A stretch of DNA of 64,000 bases from Clostridia bacterium (GCA_017620205.1 JAFZQX010000021.1:1-64000), one strand, 5' to 3'. Numbered from the stretch's first letter, positions 1-18,320 are shown. Notes: a model not told the origin generated them from the sequence alone. A program made the numbers and translations.

Positions 1-2
1 TA

Positions 3-107
3 AAGGTACACAACTATAACTATAACAAGTTTCCTATGCGTCCTCTCAACTGGAAAGCTCCTGCCGATTACATAAAAGCTTTCCTTGATAATGGCGAAGT
101 GTTTTAG
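3..107 (+). CDS. C-terminal end of a DDE/integrase-core transposase (5' cut by window edge)
   Basis: An open frame runs in from the left edge and stops at TAG 105-107. Its last residues contain RPLNWKAPADYIKAFLDNG. This matches the way integrase-core (rve) transposases of the IS3/IS481 type end: an Arg-Pro-x-x-x-Leu-x-Trp-x-x-Pro stretch followed by a short helix. Only 34 residues are visible, so neither the family nor whether the gene is intact can be decided. No terminal inverted repeat is obvious in the 58 bp before the next gene. It is the only mobile-element trace in the window. Confidence 0.5.
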   Translation, partial: KVHNYNYNKFPMRPLNWKAPADYIKAFLDNGEVF

Positions 108-165: not shown

Positions 166-1422
166 TTACTGCTTATCCCATGGCAATACTTCCCAACCTT
201 CCGGAGGATTGCCGAGATCCGGCACATCTATAGGCTGACCGCCCGCCAAAGCTGACTGATGCGCAATTAGACCCGGTATGTTGTATCTTGCGACTGCCCA
301 GATGTTAGTGGGGGACAGCTTGCCCGTTTCATAGGCGCGGCAGAAATCGTCTATCAGGAAATGATGCGTGCCGTTATGGCCGTTATGCATGCCGAGAAAT
401 TCTTCGGGTAAACGTGCGGTCGGTTGTGAGGGTGACGCTTCAGACCAGCCTTCGCCGGAGGCTATTTTTTGGATTGCCTCGGTATAATTGCTCTCTATAA
501 GCTCCGCAAGAGGCCTCGGTTGAAGTTCGGCCGTAACATCCTCCATAATAACTTTATGGTCATCTTCGGGATTCCAGCGCGATAAGCTGTGTCTTGCAAC
601 GGAGAATTCATATCCCGCGCTGTCGCCGTAAAACTGTGTAATATATGTTTCGGGCGCAACCCAGCCTATGCAGCGGTTTTCGCATATTCTTACTATGCCG
701 CCGTTTGACAGTTCCATGAGCATTGTCTCATTTGAAAACGGATTGTTATATTCATTTTGTCCGTCCGTGCCGTAAATGTCCGTTCTTGTACTGCCTTTAA
801 AGCCCATGGCTACAACTCTTTTGGCATAAACGCCGGGCATGGATGAGAGAACCATTGATGTTGTGTGAGTTGGATAGAAAAACGGGGGAATACCCGCATA
901 TTTTTTCCAATCCTCACCGCCGGAGCTGCGGAAGCTCTGCTCCATATTGCGTATATCGTGATTATACTGTGCCTCTGCATAAGTAAAGTTTCCGAATGTG
1001 CCTTTGGCAAATTCCCGTCTTAAAAAGCACGCGGGTGCGCGGTAAAATCCGGTTTCGCCCATAGAGTATGTAAGGCGAGTTTCTCTTATTAGTTTTTCTA
1101 TTTCTTTTATTTCGTCAACACTGACGGCACAAGGCACGGAGCTGTATACGTGCTTTCCGGCTTTAAGGGCTCTTATAACCATTTGTCCGTGCGAGAAACG
1201 CTGTGTAAATATTGCAACCGCGTTAATGTCTTTTGATGCCAATACTTCTTCGTATGTATCAATTACTTTAACGCCAAAATCTTTTGCAAATTTTTCGGCG
1301 CGGTCGCGTTTCAAATCGCAAACGTAAACCTCGTCAACTATATGATTTGCTTTAAAAAGCGGAACAAAGAACGGACTGAACCTGCCGCAGCCTATTACTG
1401 CAATTTTCATTTTTTCTTTCAT
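166..1422 (-). CDS. Gfo/Idh/MocA family NAD(P)-dependent oxidoreductase
   Basis: Predicted 418-residue cytoplasmic dehydrogenase of sugar or cyclitol-type substrates. The N-terminal Rossmann fold starts at once with KIAVIGCGRFS (dinucleotide loop, residues 6-16), and the C-terminal alpha/beta domain follows from about residue 125. The usual EKP signature, whose Lys is catalytic in glucose-fructose oxidoreductase relatives, reads SSVPCA here. The protein therefore belongs to the VP-type branch and may not be a simple dehydrogenase. The start is the first ATG, with AAAGGAG 9 nt upstream. It is the last gene of the minus-strand operon that begins at 6659, 50 bp after the third QueG-like gene. 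The substrate cannot be told. Confidence 0.85.
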   Translation of the reverse strand: MKEKMKIAVIGCGRFSPFFVPLFKANHIVDEVYVCDLKRDRAEKFAKDFGVKVIDTYEEVLASKDINAVAIFTQRFSHGQMVIRALKAGKHVYSSVPCAVSVDEIKEIEKLIRETRLTYSMGETGFYRAPACFLRREFAKGTFGNFTYAEAQYNHDIRNMEQSFRSSGGEDWKKYAGIPPFFYPTHTTSMVLSSMPGVYAKRVVAMGFKGSTRTDIYGTDGQNEYNNPFSNETMLMELSNGGIVRICENRCIGWVAPETYITQFYGDSAGYEFSVARHSLSRWNPEDDHKVIMEDVTAELQPRPLAELIESNYTEAIQKIASGEGWSEASPSQPTARLPEEFLGMHNGHNGTHHFLIDDFCRAYETGKLSPTNIWAVARYNIPGLIAHQSALAGGQPIDVPDLGNPPEGWEVLPWDKQ

Positions 1423-1472
1423 TTTTTTAATCTCCTTTAAAGTTTAAGAAGTGTATTTTAAGCAAAATATAA

Positions 1473-2450
1473 TCAGGTTTTGTTGCTGAAATGCCATTCT
1501 TCTTCTCTTTTTCCTGTCTCAAATTGCTTTGTTGAGAGCTTCCAATCTTCTCCCTCTCTGAATTTTCTCTTAAAACCTTTTTTGAGGATGCCTTTTTCTT
1601 CAAGGTGAATATAGCACGCTCTGTCACAGGCTCTGCCGCAGATTGAAGTTCTGTAATAATGCTTTGCGGGCGGATAAAAATAAATGCTGTCCAAAATCTC
1701 ACGTGCTTCCTCGGCGTCAAATTCCGCTGTGCCGTCTATGATTTCAAGCCTGTTGTCAAAGCCTTCAAAAGCGTCCGGCGGCATAAATGGGTTTTTGCTG
1801 CCGTTTCCGCCGTTATAATATACGGCGCACCGCCATGTGTCCATTTTGCCGTTTTTATCTATTGCGCCTCCGGGGCACGCTTTGATACACTCACCGCATT
1901 TGTCGCAAATGTGCGGCTCATACATGGGCGTTGGTTCAAGCTCCGCGTCCGTAATTACAAAGCAGTACCGCATGAAAGGCCCGTATTCATCGTTTAATAC
2001 GGCGCCGGACAGCCCACGCTCGCCAAGCCCGCAAAGAACTGCAAATTTATCAAAATCAATCTGGTTTTCTGCCGTTATTCCTCTGTAAATATCGTTATAA
2101 TCAACTTCGGGGTTGGTTTCGTTTTCCTCGTTCATAATAAGCTGATTGCGCCTTTGCGGCACAGCCTCAAAACCGTTTTCCTCCAAAAGATTGCTGATTC
2201 GAAGCAGCGCAAGCGGCATTACCGTCTCTTCAAGGTTTTCAACGCCCATTGTCGTATACTGATAATACGTAGTTCCTTCTTCAACGCCTCTGTATTCTCC
2301 GCGCAGTACTCTGAAGCCGAGGCCTATAACGGTTTTAGCATTCGGCAGGATTTTAAAAACTGCGTCGTCTTTTTGAAATCTTTCTTTGGGCGCAAAGCCC
2401 ACTACATCCGCGTCAAGCCTTAAAGCGGTATCGATTATCTCTTTTTTCAT
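1473..2450 (-). CDS. QueG-like double [4Fe-4S] oxidoreductase, paralog 3
   Basis: Predicted 325-residue redox protein related to epoxyqueuosine reductase. An N-terminal QueG/DUF1730-like domain covers roughly residues 1-165. A ferredoxin motif follows, CDKCGECIKACP, then a single Cys in WRCAVYY, and a final C-x3-C-x3-C group (ICGRACDRACY). Together these give eight Cys, enough for two [4Fe-4S] clusters. True QueG ends its second cluster with C-x2-C-x3-C-P, so this is a divergent subfamily. The start ATG overlaps the stop of the upstream paralog (ATGA, 2447-2450) and has AAAGGAGG upstream, so the two are translationally coupled. A role in queuosine synthesis is unlikely because three different paralogs sit together and no other queuosine gene is visible. 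Confidence 0.8.
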   Translation of the reverse strand: MKKEIIDTALRLDADVVGFAPKERFQKDDAVFKILPNAKTVIGLGFRVLRGEYRGVEEGTTYYQYTTMGVENLEETVMPLALLRISNLLEENGFEAVPQRRNQLIMNEENETNPEVDYNDIYRGITAENQIDFDKFAVLCGLGERGLSGAVLNDEYGPFMRYCFVITDAELEPTPMYEPHICDKCGECIKACPGGAIDKNGKMDTWRCAVYYNGGNGSKNPFMPPDAFEGFDNRLEIIDGTAEFDAEEAREILDSIYFYPPAKHYYRTSICGRACDRACYIHLEEKGILKKGFKRKFREGEDWKLSTKQFETGKREEEWHFSNKT

Positions 2451-3352
2451 ATTCTGCCCGCCTCCTTTAAGTGCTTATAGCACACAGTTTCACATTTTCT
2501 GCCGCAAAGGCAGGGGACATATCCGAAATGCGTATTGGGCAGGAATTTAAGTTTCCCGTAAATCGCTTTTGCCGACTCGCTGTCAAATCTTTTTTCACCG
2601 TTTATTATCTTTTCTCTTTCGGGATCGTCTTTTAGAAAATCATCCTTCATAAAAGGATTTGATTTATGTGCGCCTCTGTAATAGACGCTGCACTGCCATG
2701 AATCAACTCCGCCCTCGTCTATCGCTTTACCGGGGCAGGCGCGAAGGCACTCCCCGCATTTGTCGCAAAGCTCATCTTTAAACGGCTCATCGCACTCAAG
2801 CGGCATATCGGTAATTATAAACGCATACCTCATATATGTGCCGTATTTAGGAGCGATAACCTTGCCGTTTAAACCTATTGAGCCCAGACCGCAAACCTCA
2901 GCCGCTTTGTTATAGTCTATTATTACTTCGGGTGCGGGCTTGCCGGGCTCTACGGGACTTGAATATTGCAGCTCATACGTTTGGCTTACCTCCGGCGATG
3001 TCTCTTTGTCGCCTTTCACACGAAGTCCGGGCACGGTTCTTTGCAGGCATGCGTCATACCCTGCGTTTTCAATAATACGCGCCATTTTAAGGAGCAAAAT
3101 CTCAACAAAGCCTTCGTCTATATATTTAACGCCCAGATTTGTATAATTATAATACTGCACTTTATTATCCATCGCGTCATAAAGGCCTTTCGGAATCTTC
3201 ATTCCAAAGCCTATGATACATTTTGCTTTCGGTAATATGCACCTTGGATCTCTTTGCGGTTCGCATCCTTCATAATATGAAATGTTGCCGATACCGCAGG
3301 TTGTCGCGCCAAGCTCTTTAGCCTTTTGTTTTATATATTCCGCAGTCAGCAT
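2447..3352 (-). CDS. QueG-like double [4Fe-4S] oxidoreductase, paralog 2
   Basis: 301-residue relative of the genes on either side. The opening residues MLTAEYIKQKAKELGA align with the opening of paralog 1. The first cluster motif is CDKCGECLRACPGKAI, the lone Cys lies in WQCSVYY, and the C-terminal group is CLCGRKCETVC (C-x-C-x3-C-x3-C). The middle part includes YGTYMRYAFIITDMPLE, matching the strand before the ferredoxin domain in QueG-type enzymes. It is shorter than QueG (about 370) because the C-terminal HEAT-like extension is missing. Its start overlaps the end of the cupin gene by about 35 bp, and its stop overlaps the next start. The electron acceptor or substrate is unknown. Confidence 0.8.
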   Translation of the reverse strand: MLTAEYIKQKAKELGATTCGIGNISYYEGCEPQRDPRCILPKAKCIIGFGMKIPKGLYDAMDNKVQYYNYTNLGVKYIDEGFVEILLLKMARIIENAGYDACLQRTVPGLRVKGDKETSPEVSQTYELQYSSPVEPGKPAPEVIIDYNKAAEVCGLGSIGLNGKVIAPKYGTYMRYAFIITDMPLECDEPFKDELCDKCGECLRACPGKAIDEGGVDSWQCSVYYRGAHKSNPFMKDDFLKDDPEREKIINGEKRFDSESAKAIYGKLKFLPNTHFGYVPCLCGRKCETVCYKHLKEAGRI

Positions 3353-3689
3353 ATAAGGTCATCCTTTCTGTAGACTCTTTCTTTATGTTGCTGTCTTCAA
3401 CAACAATCAAAAGCGCGTCTTCGCTTATTTTTAAGTGATGCCATGTTGCGCACTTTATATTATATAAAACGCCGTTTTTCATTTTCATGCAGATAACTTT
3501 GTCATTTTCATAAGTATATAGTTCCGCGGCACCGCGGATAAGTATCATGGCCTCGTCTGTTGTCATGTGGCGTTTGAGCTCACGGGGCTCGCCGTAAGAG
3601 TCGGAATGTGTGATATACGCCACTTGCCACTTATCCGTTTTTGTCATCGGGTAAAAACCGCCGGAGTATGTGTCGCAAATTTCTATCAT
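3318..3689 (-). CDS. small single-domain cupin-like protein
   Basis: A 123-residue beta-rich protein beginning MIEICDTYSGGFYP. The central stretch around HMTTDEAMILIRGAAELY and the later ATWHHLKISEDALLIVVED have the hydrophobic alternation and spaced His/Glu of a cupin barrel that senses or binds a small ligand. The ATG at 3689 is preferred over an in-frame ATG at 3704. GGAGG lies 8 nt before it, and ATGA overlaps the stop of the upstream QueG-like gene, which is the coupling used elsewhere in this operon. Being embedded between two QueG paralogs suggests an accessory or ligand-binding role in the same pathway. I do not recognise a specific family. Confidence 0.7.
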   Translation of the reverse strand: MIEICDTYSGGFYPMTKTDKWQVAYITHSDSYGEPRELKRHMTTDEAMILIRGAAELYTYENDKVICMKMKNGVLYNIKCATWHHLKISEDALLIVVEDSNIKKESTERMTLYADCGIYKTKG

Positions 3690-4765
3690 CTGTCCATCCT
3701 CCATGCTTTTTTGGTTCTTAAAGGCTCTTTAAACCTGCCTTCCATACATCCGCCTTTTTTCTCCAATACGGAAACGCAGGCTCTTATACAGCCGCCGCAT
3801 TTTGCCATGTTGTAACCGACCCAGCTCGGGAAGTATTTTTCAAGGCTTGTATATACCTTCATAACTTCTTTTTCGTTTGCCGCAATATCGCTCTTTTCAA
3901 GCAAATCAAGAGAGCCGCCCTCGTTTTCGTCAAATATTTCCTTAGGTACAAACGGGTTATAGTATCTGCCTGCATGCGTATAGAAAGCGTAGCAGCGCCA
4001 CATATCAATATCGCCCCACTCGCAGATTTTGCCTGCGAGATTAACTGTTACCGTTTTACCGGAATTGATAGGGGGGATACATGAGCCGGGACATTCTCTT
4101 ACGCACGCGCCGCATCTTCTGCAAAGCGGCTTGCCGCTGTACATTTCGTCATATTCGAGCTCCGCGTCCGTAAATATAAAAGCCACACGCTGTAAAGGCC
4201 CGAATTCGGGTGTTAAAAGCATTTTGCTCCAGCCGATTTCTCCGAGACCGCACGCAACTGCCGCCAGGCGGAACTGAAACTGAATATCGGGAGGCACTTT
4301 GCCTTTTCCGGTCTCTCTTGTAAACTGCACGCTTCTGTGATGAGCTGTTTTGCCTTTCGCGTGCTTGCTTACTTCTATTTGCTCTTCCGGTGAAAGCGTG
4401 TTGCCGGGACTTCCGTCCATATCTGAAACAATGCCGCGCGCGCCTGTGTTTCTGTACACAACGGCTTCATAGCCTTCGTCTTCTATAACCTTCCCAACGT
4501 GATATAATACCGCGGGGGCATAAATCTCATTTATACCGCCGTATGCCATTGAAGGATACTGATAAAACTGCGTTCCTTCTTCAATACCTCTTTGAACGCC
4601 GCGAGGTATTCTGAAAGCAAAAGCAATGCAGCTTTTGGCGGTAGGAAACAGGTTTCTCGGATCCATTTCCGGGGGCGCGCCTTCAAACCGCGACATAGGG
4701 CCTATGCCGCATTTGTCCGCACCGGCTTCGAGAGCAGCTTTTTTTATCATTTCACTTGTTAACAT
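3686..4765 (-). CDS. QueG-like double [4Fe-4S] oxidoreductase, paralog 1
   Basis: About 359 residues, the longest of the three paralogs. The start is taken at ATG 4765 (MLTSEMIKKAALEAGADKCG) because AAGGAGG lies 8 nt upstream and the residues align with paralog 2; an upstream in-frame start at 4819 lacks these. It carries CRRCGACVRECPGSCI, then an insertion of about 20 residues, then WRCYAFY, and a C-terminal KCGGCIRACV (C-x2-C-x3-C), the closest of the three to classical QueG spacing. The known family uses cobalamin and two [4Fe-4S] clusters; cofactor use here is inferred. The gene lies 17 bp behind the radical SAM gene and overlaps the cupin gene by four bases. Confidence 0.8.
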   Translation of the reverse strand: MLTSEMIKKAALEAGADKCGIGPMSRFEGAPPEMDPRNLFPTAKSCIAFAFRIPRGVQRGIEEGTQFYQYPSMAYGGINEIYAPAVLYHVGKVIEDEGYEAVVYRNTGARGIVSDMDGSPGNTLSPEEQIEVSKHAKGKTAHHRSVQFTRETGKGKVPPDIQFQFRLAAVACGLGEIGWSKMLLTPEFGPLQRVAFIFTDAELEYDEMYSGKPLCRRCGACVRECPGSCIPPINSGKTVTVNLAGKICEWGDIDMWRCYAFYTHAGRYYNPFVPKEIFDENEGGSLDLLEKSDIAANEKEVMKVYTSLEKYFPSWVGYNMAKCGGCIRACVSVLEKKGGCMEGRFKEPLRTKKAWRMDR

Positions 4766-4782
4766 TTTAAACCTCCTTACCG

Positions 4783-5709
4783 TTAGGGACACCTTGCGGC
4801 ATTTTGTGCCCACAGGCACGCGCCGCAGGTTGGCATATCATTAAATAAACAATCCTTCTTGTTTTCGAGTCTGTCATCACAGCCGTCGCATAAAGTGCAG
4901 TCGGGAAATTCAAAATGTATTACTTTTTCCCGGAAAGCTTTATATTCTTTACTGTTCCATATTTCATCCAAACTCTTTTCCGAAACATTCCCGAAACTGT
5001 ATGAAAATACTTTACGCTTTTCCTCGAATAAATATGTATAGGTATTATGAAGAAGCTGTATACACGGAGAAACATCCCCGTTCCATTTTATAAAGCATTT
5101 TCCTTCCGAAACAAACGGACAATAACCCGCGTTGTCTCCCAAAAGCTTTTTTGTTTCACAGGATTTTTTAAGCGGTCTGTAGGGTATTGCTCCGCTTATG
5201 TTTATTTCGTCGGCATCATACTTTCCGGCAAACTCATATATCTTATCCGTACGTCCGTTTTCAACAACAAAGGCAAAACCCAATTTGCAGCTGCTTCCCT
5301 TGATTTTATTGAAATATTTAATATTATTGAGCACTTTTTCCGAAAAACGGTCTGCGCTTTCCGTGTGCGCGTCATCCAACGATACCCAAAGCATACTAAG
5401 CCCTGCGTTTATCAGCTTGGCGCTCGTGTTTTCGTCTAAAAGAGAGGCGTTTGTTATAATCTCTGTTTTCTTTCCCGCAAACGAAATCCGCCTGACAATT
5501 TCAGTTATGTTTCTATGCAGAAGCGGTTCTCCGATTCCCGAGAGAGAAACAGACTCGAGCTTGTCGGCACTGTCAATATATCCGTAAAGCTTCTGCAGTA
5601 CAGGGTCATTCATTACGCCTTCGGTTTCGTCAAACCAATTATTGCGGAAACAGGTTTTGCAGTTTAAGTTACACTTGGATGTAAGTTCAATATACAGCTT
5701 TTTCATCAT
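4783..5709 (-). CDS. radical SAM protein with C-terminal SPASM domain, tungsten-oxidoreductase-maturase-like
   Basis: 308-residue radical SAM enzyme. The [4Fe-4S]/SAM motif C-x3-C-x2-C is at the very start (CNLNCKTC, residues 13-20). A GEP-type SAM-binding motif reads GIGEPLLH. The C-terminal SPASM region has many Cys (CTLCDGC, then CLFNDMPTCGACLWAQ and a final RCP). The ending PTCGACLWAQ...CP closely resembles what I recall of radical SAM maturases encoded beside tungsten-dependent aldehyde ferredoxin oxidoreductases. No such oxidoreductase lies in this window, so either the partner is elsewhere or one of the QueG-like proteins is served. Its ATG overlaps the stop of the upstream gene (ATGA). 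Family is confident; the substrate is inference. Confidence 0.85.
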   Translation of the reverse strand: MMKKLYIELTSKCNLNCKTCFRNNWFDETEGVMNDPVLQKLYGYIDSADKLESVSLSGIGEPLLHRNITEIVRRISFAGKKTEIITNASLLDENTSAKLINAGLSMLWVSLDDAHTESADRFSEKVLNNIKYFNKIKGSSCKLGFAFVVENGRTDKIYEFAGKYDADEINISGAIPYRPLKKSCETKKLLGDNAGYCPFVSEGKCFIKWNGDVSPCIQLLHNTYTYLFEEKRKVFSYSFGNVSEKSLDEIWNSKEYKAFREKVIHFEFPDCTLCDGCDDRLENKKDCLFNDMPTCGACLWAQNAARCP

Positions 5710-6659
5710 TCTAAAAAAGTAATATCCGTTTCAATTTTTTTGAGTTTCAGAGGATCTCCGTTTTCTATGATATAAGGATATATGTTGTGCGCAGGCTCTA
5801 AAAGCTCCAAAATGTTGCCGCTGTATTTTCCTTTTATATAGCTTTCTATAACACGTATGGGGCTTGGGTTTACTCTCGTTGCGAGCTTTACCGTCTCAAA
5901 ATACGGCTCATATTTATAAATATCTTCGGGTCTTATAAAATTTGTATTATCTATAAGCGATGTCAGGTTTTCGTGCTTTTGCAAAAACTCTTTGCATATT
6001 CCGCGGAAATCATACGCGTTATTCATTTTTGAAATTTCGCTTTCGTGCGAAACGAGGTTATCGTGAAAATTATGCGCACTGCAAAAATTAAGACAACCGC
6101 TGTTTGCGAGCATGCAAAGCGTTTTGCCGTTTTCTTTGCACCAAGTATAAAGCTTTTTTATGGCGTCAAAATCGCGGTTTAATTCTCTTTTCATATAGAA
6201 ACTATCAAAGTATTCTGCTATATACCTCATGCCTTCTATAGTTCCTATTTCCATGTTGACGGAAGCGCGTACCTCCAAATCCGGGAAATTGGCTTTTATG
6301 AATTTGCCGATAATGGGGGAGGTGGTGGTAATGGAACTGAGGCCAAAGGCGCTTTTTACAAAATCGGTTGTGTCGCCGAGGCGTTCAAAGAATGCTTTTG
6401 ACAAACTGTCCGCACCGTAACACGTAGCATTAAACAGGAGATTGAGCTTTATTCCGTTTTCGGAAAGCGCGCGAAGGTCGCTCATTTTCCTCTGCGCCGC
6501 GCCCCACTGCGTAAAATCATCTGCTATGTATGTAGTATTGCGCCCGTTGGCAAACCCGTCCCAGGCAAAGTATACTTCCGATACACTTTCTTTGTTTGAT
6601 ATTATTGTTTTTAGAAAATCCGTTGTTTTTGTAAGTTGATATCCGATTGAAAATTTCAC
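5706..6659 (-). CDS. peptidase U32-like TIM-barrel protein, putative Fe-S binding
   Basis: 317-residue protein, first gene of the minus-strand operon, starting at GTG with AAGGAGA just upstream. The opening FSIGYQL, the alternating beta/alpha pattern with ASVNMEIGTIEGMRYIAEYF near the middle, and the later Cys-rich segment ANSGCLNFCSAHNFHDN suggest the U32/UbiU-UbiV class of barrels, where Cys residues bind an Fe-S cluster. The classical U32 peptidase signature is not present, so peptidase activity is not claimed. Translational coupling to the radical SAM gene points to joint function. It could instead be a stand-alone barrel of an unnamed family. Confidence 0.5.
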   Translation of the reverse strand: MKFSIGYQLTKTTDFLKTIISNKESVSEVYFAWDGFANGRNTTYIADDFTQWGAAQRKMSDLRALSENGIKLNLLFNATCYGADSLSKAFFERLGDTTDFVKSAFGLSSITTTSPIIGKFIKANFPDLEVRASVNMEIGTIEGMRYIAEYFDSFYMKRELNRDFDAIKKLYTWCKENGKTLCMLANSGCLNFCSAHNFHDNLVSHESEISKMNNAYDFRGICKEFLQKHENLTSLIDNTNFIRPEDIYKYEPYFETVKLATRVNPSPIRVIESYIKGKYSGNILELLEPAHNIYPYIIENGDPLKLKKIETDITFLE

Positions 6660-6706
6660 AACATTTCTCCTTTTTTAATTTTTGAAAAATATTTTCTCTA
6701 CTACTA

Positions 6707-6735
6707 TTGATTATAGCATTTGTTTGTGTTATAAT
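6707..6735 (+). promoter_or_regulatory. promoter of the AraC-type regulator; divergent control region
   Basis: TTGATT (6707-6712), 17-bp spacer, TATAAT (6730-6735), about 75 bp before the araC-type start at 6810. On the opposite strand a TATAAT complement lies at 6710-6715 and could serve the operon that starts at 6659, so the two promoters would overlap within about 25 bp. That layout is typical of a regulator controlling a divergent operon. The minus-strand minus-35 element is poor. Confidence 0.6.
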
Positions 6736-6809
6736 ATAATAAATAATAAAGAAAAAATATAAGAAAACAAACTTTTTATCATTTTTTAAACTATACGGAG
6801 CTCGTTGAG

Positions 6810-7655
6810 ATGGAAATATATAATATAAACCCTAATATAAGGTACGCAAGGGAGCACAATAATTTTAAAGGTGTTCCTTATATAAGCAAGTGCTATGACT
6901 GCAGATTGTTTTATATATGCAGCGGCAGGGGATATGTGGTGGCAAACGGCAAAAAGTATAATTTTGCGGATAATCATGTGTTGTTTTTCCCGCCGCAGAC
7001 GGAATACAGATTTACGGTAGAATATGATGACACCACATCCGTGCAGGTGTTTAATTTTGATTTAACAGATAAGTATTTTGGTGACACAAAACACCTCGGA
7101 ACGCCCCCGAAAGAGAAATTTGATAAAGCTTTGGCCCCCTTATACGAGCTGCCACGGGAATTTAATCAAATAATAGTAAGAGAAGATTTTTTCAAAATAA
7201 ACGATTCGCTAAATGACTGTATCGAGCTTTTTATTGCCAAAACAAAATACTATAAGGAAATCGCCTCCGCCATTTTAAAAAAAGCTTTGCTGATACTTTT
7301 GATAGAAGAAAATTCTCTTGGAAAAAACAATAAGCTTATCACGGCCGTTATGGAATACATAAATACAAACTATTCAGACGTGTCGCTTTCAAACGACACG
7401 ATTGCCGCGCATTTTAATTATCATCCTTATTATTTAAACAAGCTTATAAAGAACTTTACGGGCAAAACGATTCATCAATATATAATCTTTTACCGTTTGA
7501 GAATGGCAAAGGATATGCTTCTGACTACAGATGACGATGTAAATACGATAGCGTGGAAGGTCGGCTTTAATTCCACTTCTCATTTTATAAACACATTTCA
7601 CCGCCGTTTTGGACGCACTCCTTATGAATACAGACAGGCAAGGAGTGGTTATTAG
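6810..7655 (+). CDS. AraC family transcriptional regulator with cupin-type sensor
   Basis: 281 residues. The N-terminal half (about 15-160) is a cupin-like ligand-binding domain containing FFPPQTEYRFTV, the pattern of AraC-type arm/barrel sensors. The C-terminal 100 residues hold two helix-turn-helix units: SNDTIAAHFNYHPYYLNKLIKN, then the conserved end VNTIAWKVGFNSTSHFINTFHRRFGRTPYEYR. It is transcribed away from the Fe-S/radical SAM operon, and the plus-strand sugar operon starts 250 bp downstream, so it may control either or both. AraC proteins of this build normally activate in response to a sugar or a small aromatic; the ligand is unknown. Confidence 0.9.
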   Translation: MEIYNINPNIRYAREHNNFKGVPYISKCYDCRLFYICSGRGYVVANGKKYNFADNHVLFFPPQTEYRFTVEYDDTTSVQVFNFDLTDKYFGDTKHLGTPPKEKFDKALAPLYELPREFNQIIVREDFFKINDSLNDCIELFIAKTKYYKEIASAILKKALLILLIEENSLGKNNKLITAVMEYINTNYSDVSLSNDTIAAHFNYHPYYLNKLIKNFTGKTIHQYIIFYRLRMAKDMLLTTDDDVNTIAWKVGFNSTSHFINTFHRRFGRTPYEYRQARSGY

Positions 7656-7906: not shown

Positions 7907-8833
7907 ATGATTGAAATTCAAAAAAACGCTTTTTTTCAAAAAGGGAAAGACGGAGTTCTGAAAATCACAACTCCCGGCGACAAAAAAATAGATATTATTG
8001 AGTTTGAAGATAAAAAGCTTTGTTATGTTAAAAGCGGTCTCGGCTATCCTGCAATATATCCTATGCACGAGACAAGCTTTGAGCCGAAGGCGGAAGCGAT
8101 TTTAATGGATCTGGACGGCACAAGCGTCCATTCCGAAAGCTTCTGGATGTGGGTGATTGAGCAGACGACGGCAAGGCTTCTCTGCAATGCATCTTTTAAA
8201 AGAGAAGCGGAGGATGAGCCGTTTATTTCGGGGCACAGCGTTTCGGAGCATTTGCAGTATATGATAGATAAATACGCAAAAGGGAGCGACCTCGAAACGG
8301 CGAGACGCTATTACTTTGAAATTGTAAACCATGAGATGAGCGAAATTATGAAGGGGAGAGGCAAAAAGGACGCTTTTACTCCCGCGCCTCATCTTAAAGA
8401 ATTTCTGCTTGCGGTAAAGAGCGAAGGCATAAAAATAGGGCTTGTCACAAGCGGGCTTTATGAAAAAGCGATGCCCGAAATAATATCGGCGTTTCGGCAG
8501 CTTGATATGGGCGATCCGGTTGATTTTTACGATGCCATAATAACGGCGGGACAGGCGCTTCGTAAAGGGCAGACGGGCACGCTCGGAGAGCTTGCGCCGA
8601 AACCGCATCCGTGGCTGTACGCGGAAACGGCAAGGGTTGGTCTCGGTATTCCGTTTGAAAGACGGCATAAGGTTTTGGGAATTGAAGACAGCTCGGCGGG
8701 TGTTGTATCCATAAAGCTTGCGGGCTTTAGCTGCACAGGTGTTTCGGGAGGCAATATAGAGCGTGCCGGAACCGATGAGCTGTGCGATTACAGAGTTGAC
8801 AGTTTAATGCAAATACTTGATATCATTATTTAG
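7907..8833 (+). CDS. HAD superfamily phosphatase / beta-phosphoglucomutase-like
   Basis: 308 residues. The nucleophile motif DLDGT is at residues 68-72, motif II is LVTSG, the Lys motif is PKPHP and the acidic motif III is GIEDSSAG. All four HAD motifs are therefore intact, with an alpha-helical cap between I and II. The first 60 residues precede the HAD fold and match nothing I recognise; they are Lys-rich and include FEDKKLCYVKSG. It heads the sugar operon, 17 bp before the isomerase-Nudix gene, so a sugar phosphate is the likely substrate. Phosphatase versus phosphomutase cannot be settled by eye. Confidence 0.8.
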   Translation: MIEIQKNAFFQKGKDGVLKITTPGDKKIDIIEFEDKKLCYVKSGLGYPAIYPMHETSFEPKAEAILMDLDGTSVHSESFWMWVIEQTTARLLCNASFKREAEDEPFISGHSVSEHLQYMIDKYAKGSDLETARRYYFEIVNHEMSEIMKGRGKKDAFTPAPHLKEFLLAVKSEGIKIGLVTSGLYEKAMPEIISAFRQLDMGDPVDFYDAIITAGQALRKGQTGTLGELAPKPHPWLYAETARVGLGIPFERRHKVLGIEDSSAGVVSIKLAGFSCTGVSGGNIERAGTDELCDYRVDSLMQILDIII

Positions 8834-8850: not shown

Positions 8851-10344
8851 ATGAATAATGTCGGCGGTAATAATAAAGTATACCCATTAAAAATGCGCCC
8901 CGTGTATAAAGACTATTTGTGGGGCGGCGAAAATCTGCATAAAATCTACGGCAAAGGGCCGGAGTTTATTGCGGAGAGCTGGGAGGCGTCCGATAACGCG
9001 GCAGGCAAAAGCGTTATTGATAACGGCATCTTAAAGGGGAAAACGATAGGCGAAGCCGCAGAAATACTCGGGAGCGATCTTTTGGGAGCCGAAAAAGAAT
9101 TTCCGATGCTGTTTAAGCTTATTGACGCGCATGACAGACTTTCAATTCAGGTGCACCCTGATGACGAGTATGCCTTCCGGCATGAAAACGGCTCAAACGG
9201 CAAAACGGAGTTTTGGTATGTGCTTCATGCGGAGCCGGGCGCAAAGCTTATATGCGGCTTTAAAGAGGATACGCCGAAATGCAAGCTTGAAGAAGCGATA
9301 AAAAACGGAACCGTTGAAGACCTTTTAAACAGCGTTGAGGTATCCGCAGGCGATGTCTTTTATATTCCTGCAGGTACGATACACGGAATAGGGAAAGGTA
9401 TAATTGTTGCGGAGATACAGGAGTGCTCCGATGTAACATACAGGGTATATGACTATAACAGGCGCGATAAAAACGGAAATACTCGTCCTTTGCATATAGA
9501 TAAGGCATTGGAGGTTGTAAATCTTAAGTCTTTGGCGGGCCTTGAAAGAGTGGTCTGCAGAGAACACCGTGACGGCTCAAACAACGTAAGAGAGATAATA
9601 AGCAGTAAGTATTTTAATGTATGCACAATAGACATAAAAAAGAAGATGAAAGCCGAAACAGACGGAAACTGCAGAATTGTTTTCTGTATCTCGGGAGAAG
9701 GTACGATAAACGGCGAAAGCTTTAAAGCGGGCGATACATATCTTTTGCCCGCCGAAATCGGCAAATACAAAATAAAAGGTAACTGCAAGGTTATTGTAGC
9801 GGGAAAAGGCGATAATTTCTACGCTCCGATACCTGAAGTAATTAAATCGAAAACAAAGCAATTCAGCAGATTTACCGTAAGGGATGACATTTTAAAAGGA
9901 GAAAAAGGGGAATACCCGTATTCGTTTGTAAGAATAAAAAGCGGAGTTACCGTATTGCCCGTATACGAAGGCAAAATTGTTACGATAAGGCAGTACAGAC
10001 ACGCTTTCCGCAATTTTCTCTATGAGCTTCCGGCGGGCGTTATAGACGAAGGCGAAACGCCGGAGGAAACCGCAATAAGAGAGCTTTATGAAGAGACGGG
10101 ATTTAAAGCGGAAAAAGCGGAATATTTAGGCCCGTTTTATCCGTCTCCCGGAGCTACCGACGAGGTTATTCATCTTTTCAGCGCCGAGTGTACGGAACGC
10201 GATCAGCAGCATCTTGAAAAATCTGAGCTTATCAATGTTTGTATCATGGAAGAGGCTGAATTTGCCGAGAAGATTGCAAAGAATAAGATACTTCACGGCG
10301 GAGCTTTGGCGGCATATTTGAAATACCGTTTAAAAAATAATTGA
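8851..10344 (+). CDS. manA: mannose-6-phosphate isomerase (class I) fused to a Nudix hydrolase
   Basis: 497-residue fusion. Residues about 8-320 are a type I phosphomannose isomerase that interconverts mannose 6-phosphate and fructose 6-phosphate. Zn ligands are visible in QVH (100-102), E120 and H179 within AGTIHGIG, and a YDYNR motif follows. Residues about 335-497 form an ADP-ribose pyrophosphatase-type Nudix domain with a perfect box from G396 to F418 (G-x5-E-x7-RELYEETGF). One frame runs through both parts without a frameshift signature. Usual stand-alone isomerases of this type are about 315 residues. The gene sits in an operon with a D-lyxose/D-mannose isomerase-like cupin and two glycosidases, which fits mannose entry into glycolysis; the Nudix substrate may be a nucleotide sugar or ADP-ribose. 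Confidence 0.88.
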   Translation: MNNVGGNNKVYPLKMRPVYKDYLWGGENLHKIYGKGPEFIAESWEASDNAAGKSVIDNGILKGKTIGEAAEILGSDLLGAEKEFPMLFKLIDAHDRLSIQVHPDDEYAFRHENGSNGKTEFWYVLHAEPGAKLICGFKEDTPKCKLEEAIKNGTVEDLLNSVEVSAGDVFYIPAGTIHGIGKGIIVAEIQECSDVTYRVYDYNRRDKNGNTRPLHIDKALEVVNLKSLAGLERVVCREHRDGSNNVREIISSKYFNVCTIDIKKKMKAETDGNCRIVFCISGEGTINGESFKAGDTYLLPAEIGKYKIKGNCKVIVAGKGDNFYAPIPEVIKSKTKQFSRFTVRDDILKGEKGEYPYSFVRIKSGVTVLPVYEGKIVTIRQYRHAFRNFLYELPAGVIDEGETPEETAIRELYEETGFKAEKAEYLGPFYPSPGATDEVIHLFSAECTERDQQHLEKSELINVCIMEEAEFAEKIAKNKILHGGALAAYLKYRLKNN

Positions 10345-10911: not shown

Positions 10912-13113
10912 ATGAAACTGACAAATGAGCAAAAAGCAAGAATTGAAAGCCTGCTTTCTCAAATGACGCTCGATGAAAAAATAGGTCAGATGAATAAGGA
11001 AACCGCTTCAATTGTAGGCGGCTTTGATGTCCCGGTTGCGGAACTTATGAAGATGGTAAACGACGGCAGGTTTACCCGCGAAGAAATTGAGGATATGATG
11101 GATAGTGCCGAGCGTGATTATCATGAAGATGATATCCGCGCGGGGCGTGTCGGCGCTATAAGCGGAATGGACCCCGAAAAGGCAAATGATGCACAACGGA
11201 TTGCTGTAGAAGAAAGCAGACTTCAAATCCCGCTTGTTTTCGGCTTTGATGTAATCCACGGCATGCGAAGCGTTTATCCCATTGCCATGGCGGAAGCATG
11301 CTCTTTTGACGATACGCTGTTTGAGGAAACGGCGCATATGGCGGCCATTGAATCAAGAGCATACGGAATATCGTGGAACTATGCGCCTATGCTTGATGTC
11401 GCGCGCGACTCAAGGTGGGGGCGCGTTTCGGAAGGACCGGGTGAGGATCCGTATCTCGCAAGCAGGTTTGCGCGCGGGAAAATACGCGGCCTGCAAAACG
11501 ACCGTACATCTGCCGGAAACTATGTTGCGGCTTGCACAAAGCACTTTGTCGCATACGGCGCGTGCGAGGGGGGCAGAGATTATAACACGGTTTCTATGTC
11601 GATATACGATCTTTATAACATATACCTTCCGCCGTTTCGCGCGGCAACAAAAGAGGGCGCAGCAACTGCGATGGCGTCATTTAACGATTTAAACGGCATA
11701 CCCTGCACCGTAAATGAATATGCACTTCGTGACATTTTAAAAGGTGAGCTTGGATTTTGGGGCTTTGTAGTAAGTGACGCAAACGGTATCAAAGAATGTA
11801 TAACGCACGGTATAGCCGCAGATGCTTCGGACGCAGCGGTTAAAGCATCAAAAGCGGGCGTTGATATGGATATGAGCTCACATATATACCGTGATAAATT
11901 AAAAGCCGCGGTAGAAAACGGAGCTGTGCCCATTTCTGTTATTGACGATGCGGTGCGCCGGATACTGGGCGTTAAGATGTGGCTCGGCCTTTTTGACAAC
12001 CCGTATGTTCCCGAAGACGTTATTGAGTCTTACAAAAAAGGGCTTCCCGCAGAGCATATTTCCCTTACTCTTAAAGCGGCACGGGAGTCCATAGTTCTTT
12101 TGAAAAACGAAAAGGGTATACTTCCGCTTGAAAAATCACAGAAGATTTCTCTTGTCGGTACGCTGGCGGGCAATGCCGATGAGGTTTGTGGCGCATGGGC
12201 AATGGGCAGAAAAATACGCGACTGCGTGTCCATTCTTGACGGACTTAAAAACGCGGGAGCTGACGTTTCATATTATCCCTGCTGCGGCCCACGAGGCGAT
12301 ATAAACACGGCGGAGCTTACAGCCGCCGCGGAAAACGGTGATGTAATTGTTGCGGTAGTCGGAGAAACAAAAGATATGTCGGGCGAGGCGTCGTCAAAAG
12401 CTGATATAACTCTGCCCGGTAAACAGAGAGAAATGCTTCATAAACTTCTTGACAGCGGAAAACCCGTTGTGGCTGTACTTGTAAACGGAAGACCTTTGGC
12501 ACTCGGGTGGGAAAGTGAGCATATTCCCGCAATTATTGAAGCGTGGCAGCTCGGAATTCAAATGGGCAACGCGGTTGCCGATGTTCTGTTTGGAGATGTA
12601 AACCCAAACGGAAAGCTCTCATCATCTTTCCCGGCGGTAAACGGTCAGTGCCCTATATACTATAACCATCCAAGCACAGGAAGACCTGCAGGGGAGAGCA
12701 GATTTACATCGAAGTATCTTGACGCACCGTCTGCGGCGCTTTATCCCTTCGGCTTCGGACTAAGCTATACAACGTTTGAATACAGCGGTTTAAAAGTTAA
12801 GTGCGTGGACGACTGCCTTTTAATATCCGTAAACCTTAAAAACACAGGCGAGAAGGAAGGCACAGAGGTTGCGCAGCTTTATATGCAGGATGTTACAGCA
12901 AGTCTTGTCCGTCCCGTAAAAGAGCTTAAAGATTTTAAGAGAATTACGCTGAAACCCGGAGAGGAAGAAACACTAAGTTTCACTCTCAAAAAGCAGGACA
13001 TGGGTTTTTATGATAACAACGGAAAATATCTGCTTGAGGATGGCATCTTCCGCATTTATGCCGGCGGAAACTCAAGAGACAATTTGGTGCAGGAAATTAC
13101 GGTTAAGTTTTGA
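10912..13113 (+). CDS. glycoside hydrolase family 3 beta-glycosidase
   Basis: 733 residues, normal for bacterial GH3 beta-glucosidase/xylosidase enzymes. The N-terminal TIM barrel includes FGFDVIHGMRSVYPI (110-124), KHFVAYG (210-216) and the nucleophile Asp in GFVVSDANG (D289). An alpha/beta sandwich follows with SIVLLKNEKGILPL, then a fibronectin-III-like C-terminal domain from about 640. No signal peptide is present, so it acts inside the cell on imported oligosaccharides. A ribosome site AGAGGGG precedes the ATG. It is the fourth gene of the sugar operon, 11 bp after the cupin isomerase. Confidence 0.92.
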   Translation: MKLTNEQKARIESLLSQMTLDEKIGQMNKETASIVGGFDVPVAELMKMVNDGRFTREEIEDMMDSAERDYHEDDIRAGRVGAISGMDPEKANDAQRIAVEESRLQIPLVFGFDVIHGMRSVYPIAMAEACSFDDTLFEETAHMAAIESRAYGISWNYAPMLDVARDSRWGRVSEGPGEDPYLASRFARGKIRGLQNDRTSAGNYVAACTKHFVAYGACEGGRDYNTVSMSIYDLYNIYLPPFRAATKEGAATAMASFNDLNGIPCTVNEYALRDILKGELGFWGFVVSDANGIKECITHGIAADASDAAVKASKAGVDMDMSSHIYRDKLKAAVENGAVPISVIDDAVRRILGVKMWLGLFDNPYVPEDVIESYKKGLPAEHISLTLKAARESIVLLKNEKGILPLEKSQKISLVGTLAGNADEVCGAWAMGRKIRDCVSILDGLKNAGADVSYYPCCGPRGDINTAELTAAAENGDVIVAVVGETKDMSGEASSKADITLPGKQREMLHKLLDSGKPVVAVLVNGRPLALGWESEHIPAIIEAWQLGIQMGNAVADVLFGDVNPNGKLSSSFPAVNGQCPIYYNHPSTGRPAGESRFTSKYLDAPSAALYPFGFGLSYTTFEYSGLKVKCVDDCLLISVNLKNTGEKEGTEVAQLYMQDVTASLVRPVKELKDFKRITLKPGEEETLSFTLKKQDMGFYDNNGKYLLEDGIFRIYAGGNSRDNLVQEITVKF

Positions 13114-14966: not shown

Positions 14967-17900
14967 TTATTTACTGCAGTAGTGAATATACGCGTTTGAG
15001 ATTTCTCCCGTGCTTTGTGAAAGCTCCATAACCGTTCCGCCGAGTATGGGCGTACCGATGCTGGTTTCAATTGCGATATAGCCGACAATCTTACCTTCTT
15101 CGGTTCTGAAGTTTATTCTGTCATATTCGCCAATCTTCTGACCGTACTGGAAACGTACTCCGTCATCTACAACGCTTGCGCTGTTGCAGTGCTCGTGTCC
15201 TACCAAGATAGAGTCCGCACCGAGAGCTTTCATACCGTTAAATACCGAACGGTCTGTATCCCATGCACCTTTAAGAGGTCTGCCTATATATCCGAAATCG
15301 GTAGGCTGCTTGTCTTCGCGCTCGTCAATGTTAAGAGGTGAAACAAGGTTTTTGTTTTCGTCTACATCGCCGCCGTTTACAAATCCGTATGTATTATATA
15401 AAGCGTCTTCAAAAGCAGCGGGCTGGATGTGGAACGCGAAGGTATATTTCATACCGTCAAAATCGCCGTTTATCTTTTCTGCCGCGTTTGTGTACCATTC
15501 TATCTGGTCATCGCCGAAGCCTGCTGTTTTCTTTGAGTGACCGTTTGCAAAGGTTTCGTCGCTCATAACCGAGCAGCCGTTACTGTCAAGCATGAATATA
15601 ACGCGCTTTAGTTCGCCATCCTGAACAATGCCTATGCTGTAGTTGCCGTTTCCTGTCAGAGTTCTCTGCTTAAAGAGGCAGTTGTCGCAGCCCTCGAGGT
15701 AATCGCACTGCCAGTCGGCGCCCTTTTGGCTTTCGTTATCGTGGTTTCCGAATACCGGCGCCCAGGGGATGCCGAAACTGTCCATGAAATCCGCAAGTCT
15801 TGTAAAGGAAGTACCCGCGTCGTCATAACCGCCGTATACCAGGTCGCCTGTCATAAGTATTAAATCGGGGTTTACTTCAGTTATTACTTTTCTCAAATCA
15901 TTAAATAGTCTTACGTTCATCATGGAAGGTTGCCAGAAATCTCTTTTTTGCTGTGAAAACGCGACGTCCTCACGAACCTGTGTTGCGTCTATAATCTGCG
16001 GGTCGGTAATCTGAAGAATTTTGGCGTCTCTTCCGCTTTCAATATTTACTTCATAGTCAACATATTTTTTAAATTTTCCGGCTTCTCCGCTTTTTCTGTT
16101 AATGATTAAACAATGTGCGAGAGGGTTAAGCTCCGACGACTTGCTCCAAAGGAATACAGACATTTTATCAACCGTACCGATATCAAGGTCAGACGGAATA
16201 TTAAATGCTGTGCTTTGTTCATCTGTTCCTGCCGAGCTTGCCGGTATTGTAAAATCTGTAGCCTCTGCGTCAACAATCATGTTGCCGTTGTAAAACGCAA
16301 GAAATGCTATGGCGTCTATCGCTTCATCCATGCCGTTTGCATAGCTGAGCGTTAAATTCATAGTCGAGCCTACTGAAATATCCGATATGGAGCCTACGGG
16401 CTCTTCATCTACGCTGATGGCGCTTATGGCAACAATATCATTTACCGTCTTAAAGGTAAGTGTTACGTCCTCACCGAGCGCAACGCCCGAAGCGTTTGCA
16501 ACAGTTCCGGGTATTAACAGCGTATACTCTTCATTTAATCCGAGAGCGCTGTCAAGCTCCATTATGTATGAAAGTCCGGATATTGAAGCCGTGTAGGGTA
16601 CAGTATTCTCCGAGCTGTCTTTTAGCAGTATTGCTTGCGTGTTTGCTGTGTCGCCGTCTATTACGCATCCCATGGGGATTTCAATTGTCTTAAGCGCGGT
16701 TGTAACATTTTCGAGGTCTGTTACTTTTTCGCCGAAGCGGTCTGTAAGCTCAATCTTGTCTGTGTCAATTGAAGGCGCTGCCGTGTAATATTCAAGTTTT
16801 ATATCATCCATCAAAACAGATGAGCCGCCGTCTGCCTTAAACATCAAGCCGCGTACTGCATAAGGCGTTGAATTGCCTGTCAGCATGCCGCCTGCCACGG
16901 TTGTTCCGTCAAGATCCTTAATTACGGTTGTGACGGTACGCTCCAAAACGTCAAATGACATCTGGACGTCATACCATTTTGTGCTGTCAAGGTCTATATA
17001 GTCGCTTCCTTTTACAAGTTTGGGAGTGCCTTCGTCATTTATAATCTTGAAGAATGCGCAATTGTCATCTTTGATATCAATACCAATAGCGGGGGTAATA
17101 TTTACCGATACGGGATCAACTACCGTCTCCGGCTTAATCTTAAAGCTTGTTTTGAAAATTCCGCGGAGTGGCTGCGTTGTCGCGGTTACAAGAGGCTCGT
17201 TGCACTGCATGTAAACGAGACCCGAAGCCTCTGTCACATCGGTTGTGTCGGGTTTGTCACCGAGTCTTACAACCCGGCTCGAAAGCTCGCTGTCTTCTTC
17301 AAAAGCATAGCTGTTGCCTATATCACTGTGGTATCTCCACGGCGTATAACCTTTAAAATAGCTTGTTCCTTTGAGGTCTTCGGACACATCTAACGTTGTT
17401 ATACCCTCTTCGGCAACATAGGAGGCGTCTGTAAAGTTATCAAAGGTCTCGTTGTAAATGGTTGTATCTCTTGATGTTTTTTTAATAGATAAGTTATCAA
17501 AGTATAAATATGATTCCTGGTTGTAGCCGAGCGCTGAAACCTTGAAGAAACCTATTGACTCGCCGCTGTCAAAGCTTATCGGGCTTCTGCGCGCGATAAG
17601 CTCGCCTGTAGCTCTATTGTAAAGTTCAACAGAATAATAACGCGCTTCGCAGTTTAAATAGGTTTTAACGGTGTACCAAATTAAGCCGCCAATATCTGCT
17701 GCCTTTAAGGAGCCCTGTTTAACATTGTTGTTTAAAAGCTTTGTATGGTCGCGGTAACCAAGGTAAAATCTTTGGTTAAAGCCCGATATAATATTGTGCT
17801 GTGCAACGGTTGTGCTTGAAGCCGAGCCGTCACCGGTATTTAAAGTAAAAGAAAACTGGGTTTTATTGTTTATTAAAGCGGGTTTAAAATCAAAACTTAT

Positions 17901-18320
17901 TTCCCAACTGCCCGTTGCCGCTTCGCCGGGAGCTACTCCGGGGAACGTTTTGCCGTAGCCGTATGAAGGAACGCTTTGATTATTGCTGGTGCTGCCTTCG
18001 CCTGCCGAAACAACCTGCAGGCATTGGCTGCCGTCTTTTTCTGCTATTTTAGCAAGCTTATAGTTAAAAGTTGAATACGGAGCAACCGCTTCTACGGTGG
18101 TGTGGAGCGAATCGTGATCCGCCATATACCAGCCGTAGTCTTTTAAGGTAAGAAGAGTGTTTTGGTAATTAACGTTACCGCCGAAGCCTTCAAAATCCTC
18201 GCTGTACTCCGTGTCGGTGTTTACCGTTTCGGCAAAGACCGCAGGCACAGATATAACGGCTATGGTTGCAATAATCATAGCGGCTATAATAGTGAGGCTC
18301 AATATTTTGCGTAGTTTCAT
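14967..18320 (-). CDS. large secreted metallophosphoesterase with Ig-like and concanavalin-like domains
   Basis: 1117 residues. An N-terminal signal peptide is followed by two stretches that look like concanavalin/LamG-type beta sandwiches (about 40-265 and 285-510), with repeated phrases such as YFDNLSIKK and VLMDDIKLEYY. Next comes a SbsA/Big_5-type Ig domain ending in VTLTFKTV and another Ig-like unit. The C-terminal catalytic domain runs from about residue 765. Calcineurin-type metal motifs are visible: LQITDPQI (DxQ where DxH is usual), MTGDLVYGGYD, FGNHDNE and LVGHEH. The product is probably exported to the cell surface or medium to strip phosphate from esters. It has its own promoter in the 111-bp repeat at 18353. 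Confidence 0.85.
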   Translation of the reverse strand: MKLRKILSLTIIAAMIIATIAVISVPAVFAETVNTDTEYSEDFEGFGGNVNYQNTLLTLKDYGWYMADHDSLHTTVEAVAPYSTFNYKLAKIAEKDGSQCLQVVSAGEGSTSNNQSVPSYGYGKTFPGVAPGEAATGSWEISFDFKPALINNKTQFSFTLNTGDGSASSTTVAQHNIISGFNQRFYLGYRDHTKLLNNNVKQGSLKAADIGGLIWYTVKTYLNCEARYYSVELYNRATGELIARRSPISFDSGESIGFFKVSALGYNQESYLYFDNLSIKKTSRDTTIYNETFDNFTDASYVAEEGITTLDVSEDLKGTSYFKGYTPWRYHSDIGNSYAFEEDSELSSRVVRLGDKPDTTDVTEASGLVYMQCNEPLVTATTQPLRGIFKTSFKIKPETVVDPVSVNITPAIGIDIKDDNCAFFKIINDEGTPKLVKGSDYIDLDSTKWYDVQMSFDVLERTVTTVIKDLDGTTVAGGMLTGNSTPYAVRGLMFKADGGSSVLMDDIKLEYYTAAPSIDTDKIELTDRFGEKVTDLENVTTALKTIEIPMGCVIDGDTANTQAILLKDSSENTVPYTASISGLSYIMELDSALGLNEEYTLLIPGTVANASGVALGEDVTLTFKTVNDIVAISAISVDEEPVGSISDISVGSTMNLTLSYANGMDEAIDAIAFLAFYNGNMIVDAEATDFTIPASSAGTDEQSTAFNIPSDLDIGTVDKMSVFLWSKSSELNPLAHCLIINRKSGEAGKFKKYVDYEVNIESGRDAKILQITDPQIIDATQVREDVAFSQQKRDFWQPSMMNVRLFNDLRKVITEVNPDLILMTGDLVYGGYDDAGTSFTRLADFMDSFGIPWAPVFGNHDNESQKGADWQCDYLEGCDNCLFKQRTLTGNGNYSIGIVQDGELKRVIFMLDSNGCSVMSDETFANGHSKKTAGFGDDQIEWYTNAAEKINGDFDGMKYTFAFHIQPAAFEDALYNTYGFVNGGDVDENKNLVSPLNIDEREDKQPTDFGYIGRPLKGAWDTDRSVFNGMKALGADSILVGHEHCNSASVVDDGVRFQYGQKIGEYDRINFRTEEGKIVGYIAIETSIGTPILGGTVMELSQSTGEISNAYIHYCSK

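Follow-up and report, generated by a model that had tools for sequence, protein, structure and literature searches.

The 64,000-nucleotide stretch of Clostridia bacterium DNA analysed here as a whole (GCA_017620205.1, JAFZQX010000021.1:1-64000; hereafter the window) carries, at positions 166-7655, a gene cluster built on a conserved cassette, the core of which is an AraC-family regulator gene divergent from four genes encoding a U32-like TIM-barrel protein and three QueG-like proteins. QueG-like proteins are abbreviated Q, the three cassette paralogues being Q1, Q2 and Q3, and L and G numbers label the loci and genomes used for comparison. U32, Q1, Q2 and Q3 are co-inherited as a unit, in nearly every case together with the divergent AraC gene. 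The set is real and conserved and, by all appearances, inducible, and from its contexts we infer a reductive chemistry on sugars, which is proposed tentatively below.

Conservation and spread of the cassette

Loci were found by U32 protein searches covering relatives, named genomes and a class sample, and their neighbourhoods were then read. The order U32-Q1-Q2-Q3 was complete, on one strand, in 17 loci (the window included) from several families of one class, so the recurrence of the gene set is far beyond chance. Four further loci (L017, L020, L029 and L067) are broken by contig ends and compatible with the same order, and in L069 the U32 gene stands alone. Of the 17 complete loci, 15 have the AraC gene in divergent orientation. 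The hosts that are named are uncultured Clostridia, their genomes assembled from samples of ruminant and other origin; a relative of U32, if distant ones are counted, is present in 33 of 391 genomes of the class, and the distribution of the cassette is thus patchy. The first-pass annotation of this DNA had proposed a system that conservation in several genera would support and the finding of its genes apart in relatives would undermine, and for the four core genes the complete loci in several families bear the proposal out. It had also known of no described pathway with this gene set; our literature searches likewise found no description, which is weak evidence since they covered open-licence papers only.

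Q1 is 80-94% identical among relatives across families, as against 49-69% for U32, which makes Q1 a good marker in the hunt for a substrate. The window Q2 and Q3 share 83-88% identity with their counterparts in L028 and L030-L032, two of these loci coming from another family, but only 67-73% with those in L019, L021 and L022 from the window's own family; this closer resemblance to other-family loci points to horizontal transfer. Q2 and Q3 are missing beside a related pair, Q1b-U32b (about 40% identity).

Gene organisation and putative promoter

Seven close-packed genes form a minus-strand run (166-6659), transcribed in the order U32-like, SPASM, Q1, cupin, Q2, Q3, Gfo/Idh, with the AraC gene divergent on the plus strand. 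All eight genes were confirmed in the places given by the first-pass annotation, which had also described the ATGA or longer overlaps and short gaps of the run.

6810-7655, plus strand: AraC-family regulator, divergent (HTH_18, 1.2e-22)
6744-6771, minus strand: conserved block TTTGTTTTCTTATATTTTTTCTTTATTA, proposed AraC site (footprint in six loci)
6710-6718, minus strand: extended -10 box TGCTATAAT of the putative cassette promoter, no good -35 box (footprint and inspection)
6659-5706, minus strand: U32-like TIM-barrel protein, 317 amino acids, core gene 1 (GTG start, GGAG upstream)
5709-4783, minus strand: radical SAM/SPASM protein, ATGA overlap with U32 (radical SAM 6e-11, SPASM 5.8e-17)
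4765-3686, minus strand: Q1, RdhA/QueG superfamily, core gene 2 (17 nucleotides after SPASM, AGGAGG)
3704, or more likely 3689, to 3318, minus strand: small cupin, optional (WbuC-like, 1.8e-5)
3352-2447, minus strand: Q2, RdhA/QueG superfamily, core gene 3 (35-nucleotide overlap with the cupin gene)
2450-1473, minus strand: Q3, RdhA/QueG superfamily, core gene 4 (ATGA overlap with Q2)
1422-166, minus strand: Gfo/Idh/MocA oxidoreductase, optional last gene (50 nucleotides after Q3; PF01408, 1.8e-20)

The GTG at 4819, which the open reading frame list gives as the start of Q1, is an unlikely one. The Q1/cupin junction is probably an ATGA overlap of the kind found at U32/SPASM and Q2/Q3.

The region between the U32 and AraC genes contains a block, GTTTGTTTTCTTATATTT..TT.TTTATTATTT, which is kept in six loci and is followed by the extended -10 box, reading TGTTATAAT instead of TGCTATAAT in L028; in more distant loci TTTG-rich stretches were noted by eye at the same place. 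An extended -10 box lacking a good -35 box suggests the layout of an activator-dependent promoter, and the conserved footprint would fit control by the divergent AraC protein, in line with the overlapping promoters and co-regulation described in the first-pass annotation. The 28-base pattern, with up to three mismatches allowed, has one site in the genome, as has the reversed control pattern, and no match in 100 shuffles of the window. A wider AraC regulon was ruled out, as no second site is present in the genome. An Rfam scan near the cassette found nothing relevant in the window or in eight relatives.

The Q proteins are neither QueG nor classical reductive dehalogenases

The RdhA/QueG superfamily is best known for dehalogenation and queuosine synthesis. 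Q1, Q2 and Q3 belong to it: the Q proteins are 301-359 amino acids long, and two four-cysteine [4Fe-4S] motifs are intact and invariant in each of the three (in Q1 these are C215/218/221/225 and C258/323/326/330, and D160 and R193 are also found). Profile searches with the Q proteins matched PceA-type dehalogenases and QueG. The Q1 structure model (pLDDT 65, pTM 0.70) gave 46 Foldseek matches at E<=1e-3, all of them to RdhA or QueG, and at weaker values the B12 chaperones CblD and MMACHC.

The reductive dehalogenase and QueG models are nevertheless matched well below cut-off. Against TIGR00276 (QueG, cut-off 200 bits) the scores of the three proteins were 51.9, 43.4 and 27.3 bits, and against TIGR02486 (RdhA, cut-off 160 bits) 51.2, 47.1 and 35.7 bits. 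With QueG they share the core fold, the two [4Fe-4S] motifs and an acidic residue near the active-site Asp; unlike QueG, they have neither the HEAT domain nor the VDTGPL motif, ending soon after the second cluster, and they form clades of their own. In a tree of Q1, Q2 and Q3 with 20 QueG proteins of the class the Q1 and Q2 clades were fully supported and the Q3 clade less so (81/93), and all were split from QueG at 100/100. The placement inside true QueG clades that the first-pass annotation had considered is thus not what the tree gives, and true QueG identity was ruled out by scores, motifs and tree together. The window's own genome has no QueG above cut-off, and genomes such as G003, G004 and G043 carry, besides the cassette, a separate gene elsewhere that scores 159-177 bits against the QueG model.

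The likeness to RdhA (PceA, NpRdhA; TIGR02486) comprises the core fold, the two [4Fe-4S] motifs and a TPEFGP..R segment with the equivalent of Arg-305; unlike RdhA, the Q proteins show no obvious Tat signal, occur as three paralogues together and lie in glycan contexts. The QueG structure paper aligned Asn-272 of PceA with the active-site Asp of QueG, and QueG has no equivalent of PceA Arg-305 (PMC4646009). In the Q proteins both positions are occupied in a characteristic way: Arg at the Arg-305 position and Asp or Glu at the Asn-272 position were each found in 62 of the 62 sequences scored, three loci being counted twice. An RdhA-type Arg combined with an acidic residue at the QueG Asp position sets the Q proteins apart from both QueG and classical RdhA. 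Judged from sequence, Q1-Q3 are best described as three co-inherited clades on a separate branch with features of both families, and the earlier label "QueG-like" therefore stands for the superfamily and the two cluster motifs and falls short in missing the mixture with reductive-dehalogenase features.

The U32-like barrel

The window U32-like protein had no Pfam match of its own, and three of 15 relatives matched Peptidase_U32 weakly (best 0.0018). Its structure model (pLDDT 69.5) had as best Foldseek match 5d88, the U32 protein Mk0906 (E 5.8e-8), and by its modelled fold the protein belongs to the U32 superfamily. Five cysteines (80, 174, 189, 193 and 222) are invariant in the alignment and could plausibly hold an iron-sulfur (Fe-S) cluster. 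U32 oxidases of the UbiU/UbiV, RlhA and TrhP type have four cysteines spaced as CX6CX15CX3C (PMC11574389). The cassette barrel has in common with them the U32-type barrel and conserved cysteines, and differs in its cysteine spacing, which does not follow that pattern, in its marginal Pfam U32 similarity and in having Q proteins as partners. Distant U32-like genes adjoin one or several radical SAM genes in L080 (7629-15009) and L027 (5247-9065), an association that looks unrelated.

Sugar and glycan context

The cassette is repeatedly flanked by plant-glycan genes, among them GH3, GH38, GH106, GH20, GH42 and acetyl xylan esterase. On the plus strand of the window, the neighbouring genes encode a HAD protein, a mannose-6-phosphate-isomerase/Nudix fusion, a lyxose-isomerase-like cupin, GH3 and GH2. 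In L024 the Q1b-U32b pair stands in a close-spaced gene run with an L-arabinose-isomerase-like gene and an FGGY kinase, which places the product of the pair near aldose isomerase and kinase steps; by extension, the substrate of the cassette itself would be an unusual or modified sugar, and its product a usual one. The related pair in L076 adjoins GH2, GH28, esterase and cupin genes, and LacI regulators are found close to more distant tandem Q pairs, in one genome together with a Gfo/Idh gene. The first-pass annotation had predicted reductive anaerobic chemistry on a sugar or an aromatic compound; the sugar half fits these recurring contexts, and the aromatic half found no support.

The fusion gene in the window (8851-10344, plus strand) is a single frame of 497 amino acids joining a class I mannose-6-phosphate isomerase (cupin domain) to Nudix. 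The HAD-family phosphatase/mutase-like protein (7907-8833, plus strand) is 84-86% identical to proteins in L076 (2807-3748) and L067 (107-793). As these relatives lie near a cassette in L067 and near the related U32-Q1 pair in L076, in distant genomes, it is possibly a functional partner of the cassette. Relatives of the window GH3 gene (10912-13113) and of a secreted calcineurin-like phosphoesterase (14967-18320) stand beside the cassette in L030, L032 and L063, so a larger shared neighbourhood may exist.

Proposed function and competing explanations

Our preferred reading, which is tentative, is that the cassette encodes an AraC-induced, ferredoxin-driven, probably corrinoid-dependent cytosolic module for the reductive conversion of an unusual plant sugar to a common one. 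The AraC protein would sense a plant-derived sugar and activate the operon. Electrons from ferredoxin would reach a bound corrinoid by way of the clusters in a Q protein, and this corrinoid would reductively break a C-O (or similar) bond of the unusual or modified sugar, with the acidic residue and an Arg of RdhA type perhaps involved in proton transfer. The U32 barrel, with a putative Fe-S cluster of its own, would act on the same substrate or on the product. Gfo/Idh, where present, might set the oxidation state of one carbon of the sugar, and the cupin might serve as an isomerase or binding protein; the SPASM gene is treated as an addition. The product would be a common sugar entering ordinary isomerase/kinase metabolism, as the related L024 operon suggests. 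A more specific form, in which three corrinoid/Fe-S reductases and the U32 barrel remove a group such as an O-methyl or hydroxyl from unusual plant sugars in an oxygen-free pathway of gut and rumen Clostridia, is possible and more doubtful.

Several points weigh against the sugar-reduction module. Cobalamin, substrate and reaction are all assigned by inference; confidence in the Q1 model is modest (pLDDT 65), and no residue of Q1 could be matched to the active-site Tyr of RdhA/QueG (Tyr-246 position). Neither a transporter nor a sugar kinase is encoded in the cassette, and the glycan neighbours differ by genome, as expected in any glycan-degrading gut bacterium. Cobalamin riboswitches, two of which are present in the window's genome, are just as frequent in relatives that lack the cassette, so the association proves nothing; they were ruled out as a cassette marker, and B12 is probably available. 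In L107 (3624-7811) and L108 (1161-4370) the two riboswitches were read as lying near large, similar secreted proteins, which may bind B12 at the cell surface, and near ECF-type transporter genes.

It is rather unlikely that only Q1 is catalytic, with Q2 and Q3 serving electron transfer or corrinoid reactivation and the reaction transferring a methyl group, such as in the O-demethylation of a methyl sugar. The conservation of Q1 far exceeds that of the other proteins, the related pairs consist of Q1 and U32 without Q2 and Q3, and the L076 pair lies near a methylenetetrahydrofolate reductase gene. However, the acid, the Arg and all cluster cysteines are retained in Q2 and Q3, folate genes were seen in that one genome only, and the cassette includes no corrinoid methyltransferase.

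Reductive dehalogenation or dehydroxylation of a dietary or plant aromatic, as detoxification or electron disposal, would account for the Arg-305 position shared with dehalogenases and for the PceA matches in profile searches. It is nonetheless unlikely, as the neighbourhoods examined showed no Tat signal, membrane partner or aromatic-pathway genes, the contexts are those of glycan and sugar genes, and Gfo/Idh points to sugars.

Characterised U32 oxidases and QueG act on RNA (PMC11574389, PMC4646009), and the lack of a transporter or sugar kinase in the core would also suit an inducible RNA modification in which the U32 protein, like RlhA and TrhP, hydroxylates a nucleoside that is reduced by the QueG-like proteins. 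We regard this as improbable: the Q proteins form a separate clade without the QueG HEAT domain and VDTGPL motif, and AraC control, patchy spread, the optional Gfo/Idh and the isomerase/kinase operon around the related pair all fit it poorly.

Should the sugar-reduction module prove right, the RdhA/QueG superfamily would gain a third role, in carbohydrate breakdown, and gut and rumen glycan metabolism a probably corrinoid-dependent step, while the poorly understood U32 family would gain a partner and a testable small-molecule role.

The SPASM gene and the optional genes

The first-pass annotation had counted the SPASM enzyme as part of the set, which probably does not hold: the gene is present in the window's cassette only, all other cassette loci running from U32 straight into Q1, and core membership was thereby ruled out. 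The window U32 gene is a mosaic: identity to L028 is 83% over the first third and drops to 51% by the end, whereas identity to L017 and L018 climbs from about 40% to 62-66%. The change toward the SPASM junction fits recombination there, and the SPASM gene looks inserted; it is probably an addition outside the system. The protein resembles the tungsten-enzyme radical SAM maturases of TIGR04317, and differs in scoring below cut-off (238 bits against 380), in being about 40 residues shorter and in its setting, a genome without AOR. Its relatives adjoin an AOR-like gene (L102) or Mo/W-type genes (L099), as read from the sequences; a role as AOR maturase was ruled out here by the absence of AOR from the genome. 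Among 291 genomes the sole other close relative (46%) is in G127 (L097 9300-10295), a genome that also has the cassette, where it follows apparent heme/cobalamin synthesis genes and a P-type ATPase gene.

That the SPASM protein is the functional centre, maturing a Q protein, the U32 protein or a peptide with the other genes in support, is very improbable, for although the ATGA overlap with U32, the missing AOR partner and the G127 relative after apparent heme/cobalamin synthesis genes in a cassette-bearing genome would favour it, the gene is absent from every other cassette locus, looks inserted at the U32 mosaic, and is set in a run whose gaps of 17-50 nucleotides leave no space for a precursor peptide gene.

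The cupin and Gfo/Idh genes, which the first-pass annotation had placed in the cluster, are indeed present in the window, but they are optional accessories among the loci. Cupin genes occur in L021, L022 and L028-L031 and also beside the related pair in L076; the assignment is weak (WbuC 1.8e-5), the relatives matching Cupin_2 weakly. Gfo/Idh genes occur in L019, L021, L022, L028 and L030-L032, and further off in L066 and L068.

The start of the window is a contig end, so the region downstream of the Gfo/Idh gene is not readable. An insertion-sequence-like remnant lies there: positions 1-107 (plus strand), beside the Gfo/Idh gene, resemble the final 34 codons of an IS3-type transposase gene. 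The remnant accounts for the contig break, and its position hints at mobility of the cassette.

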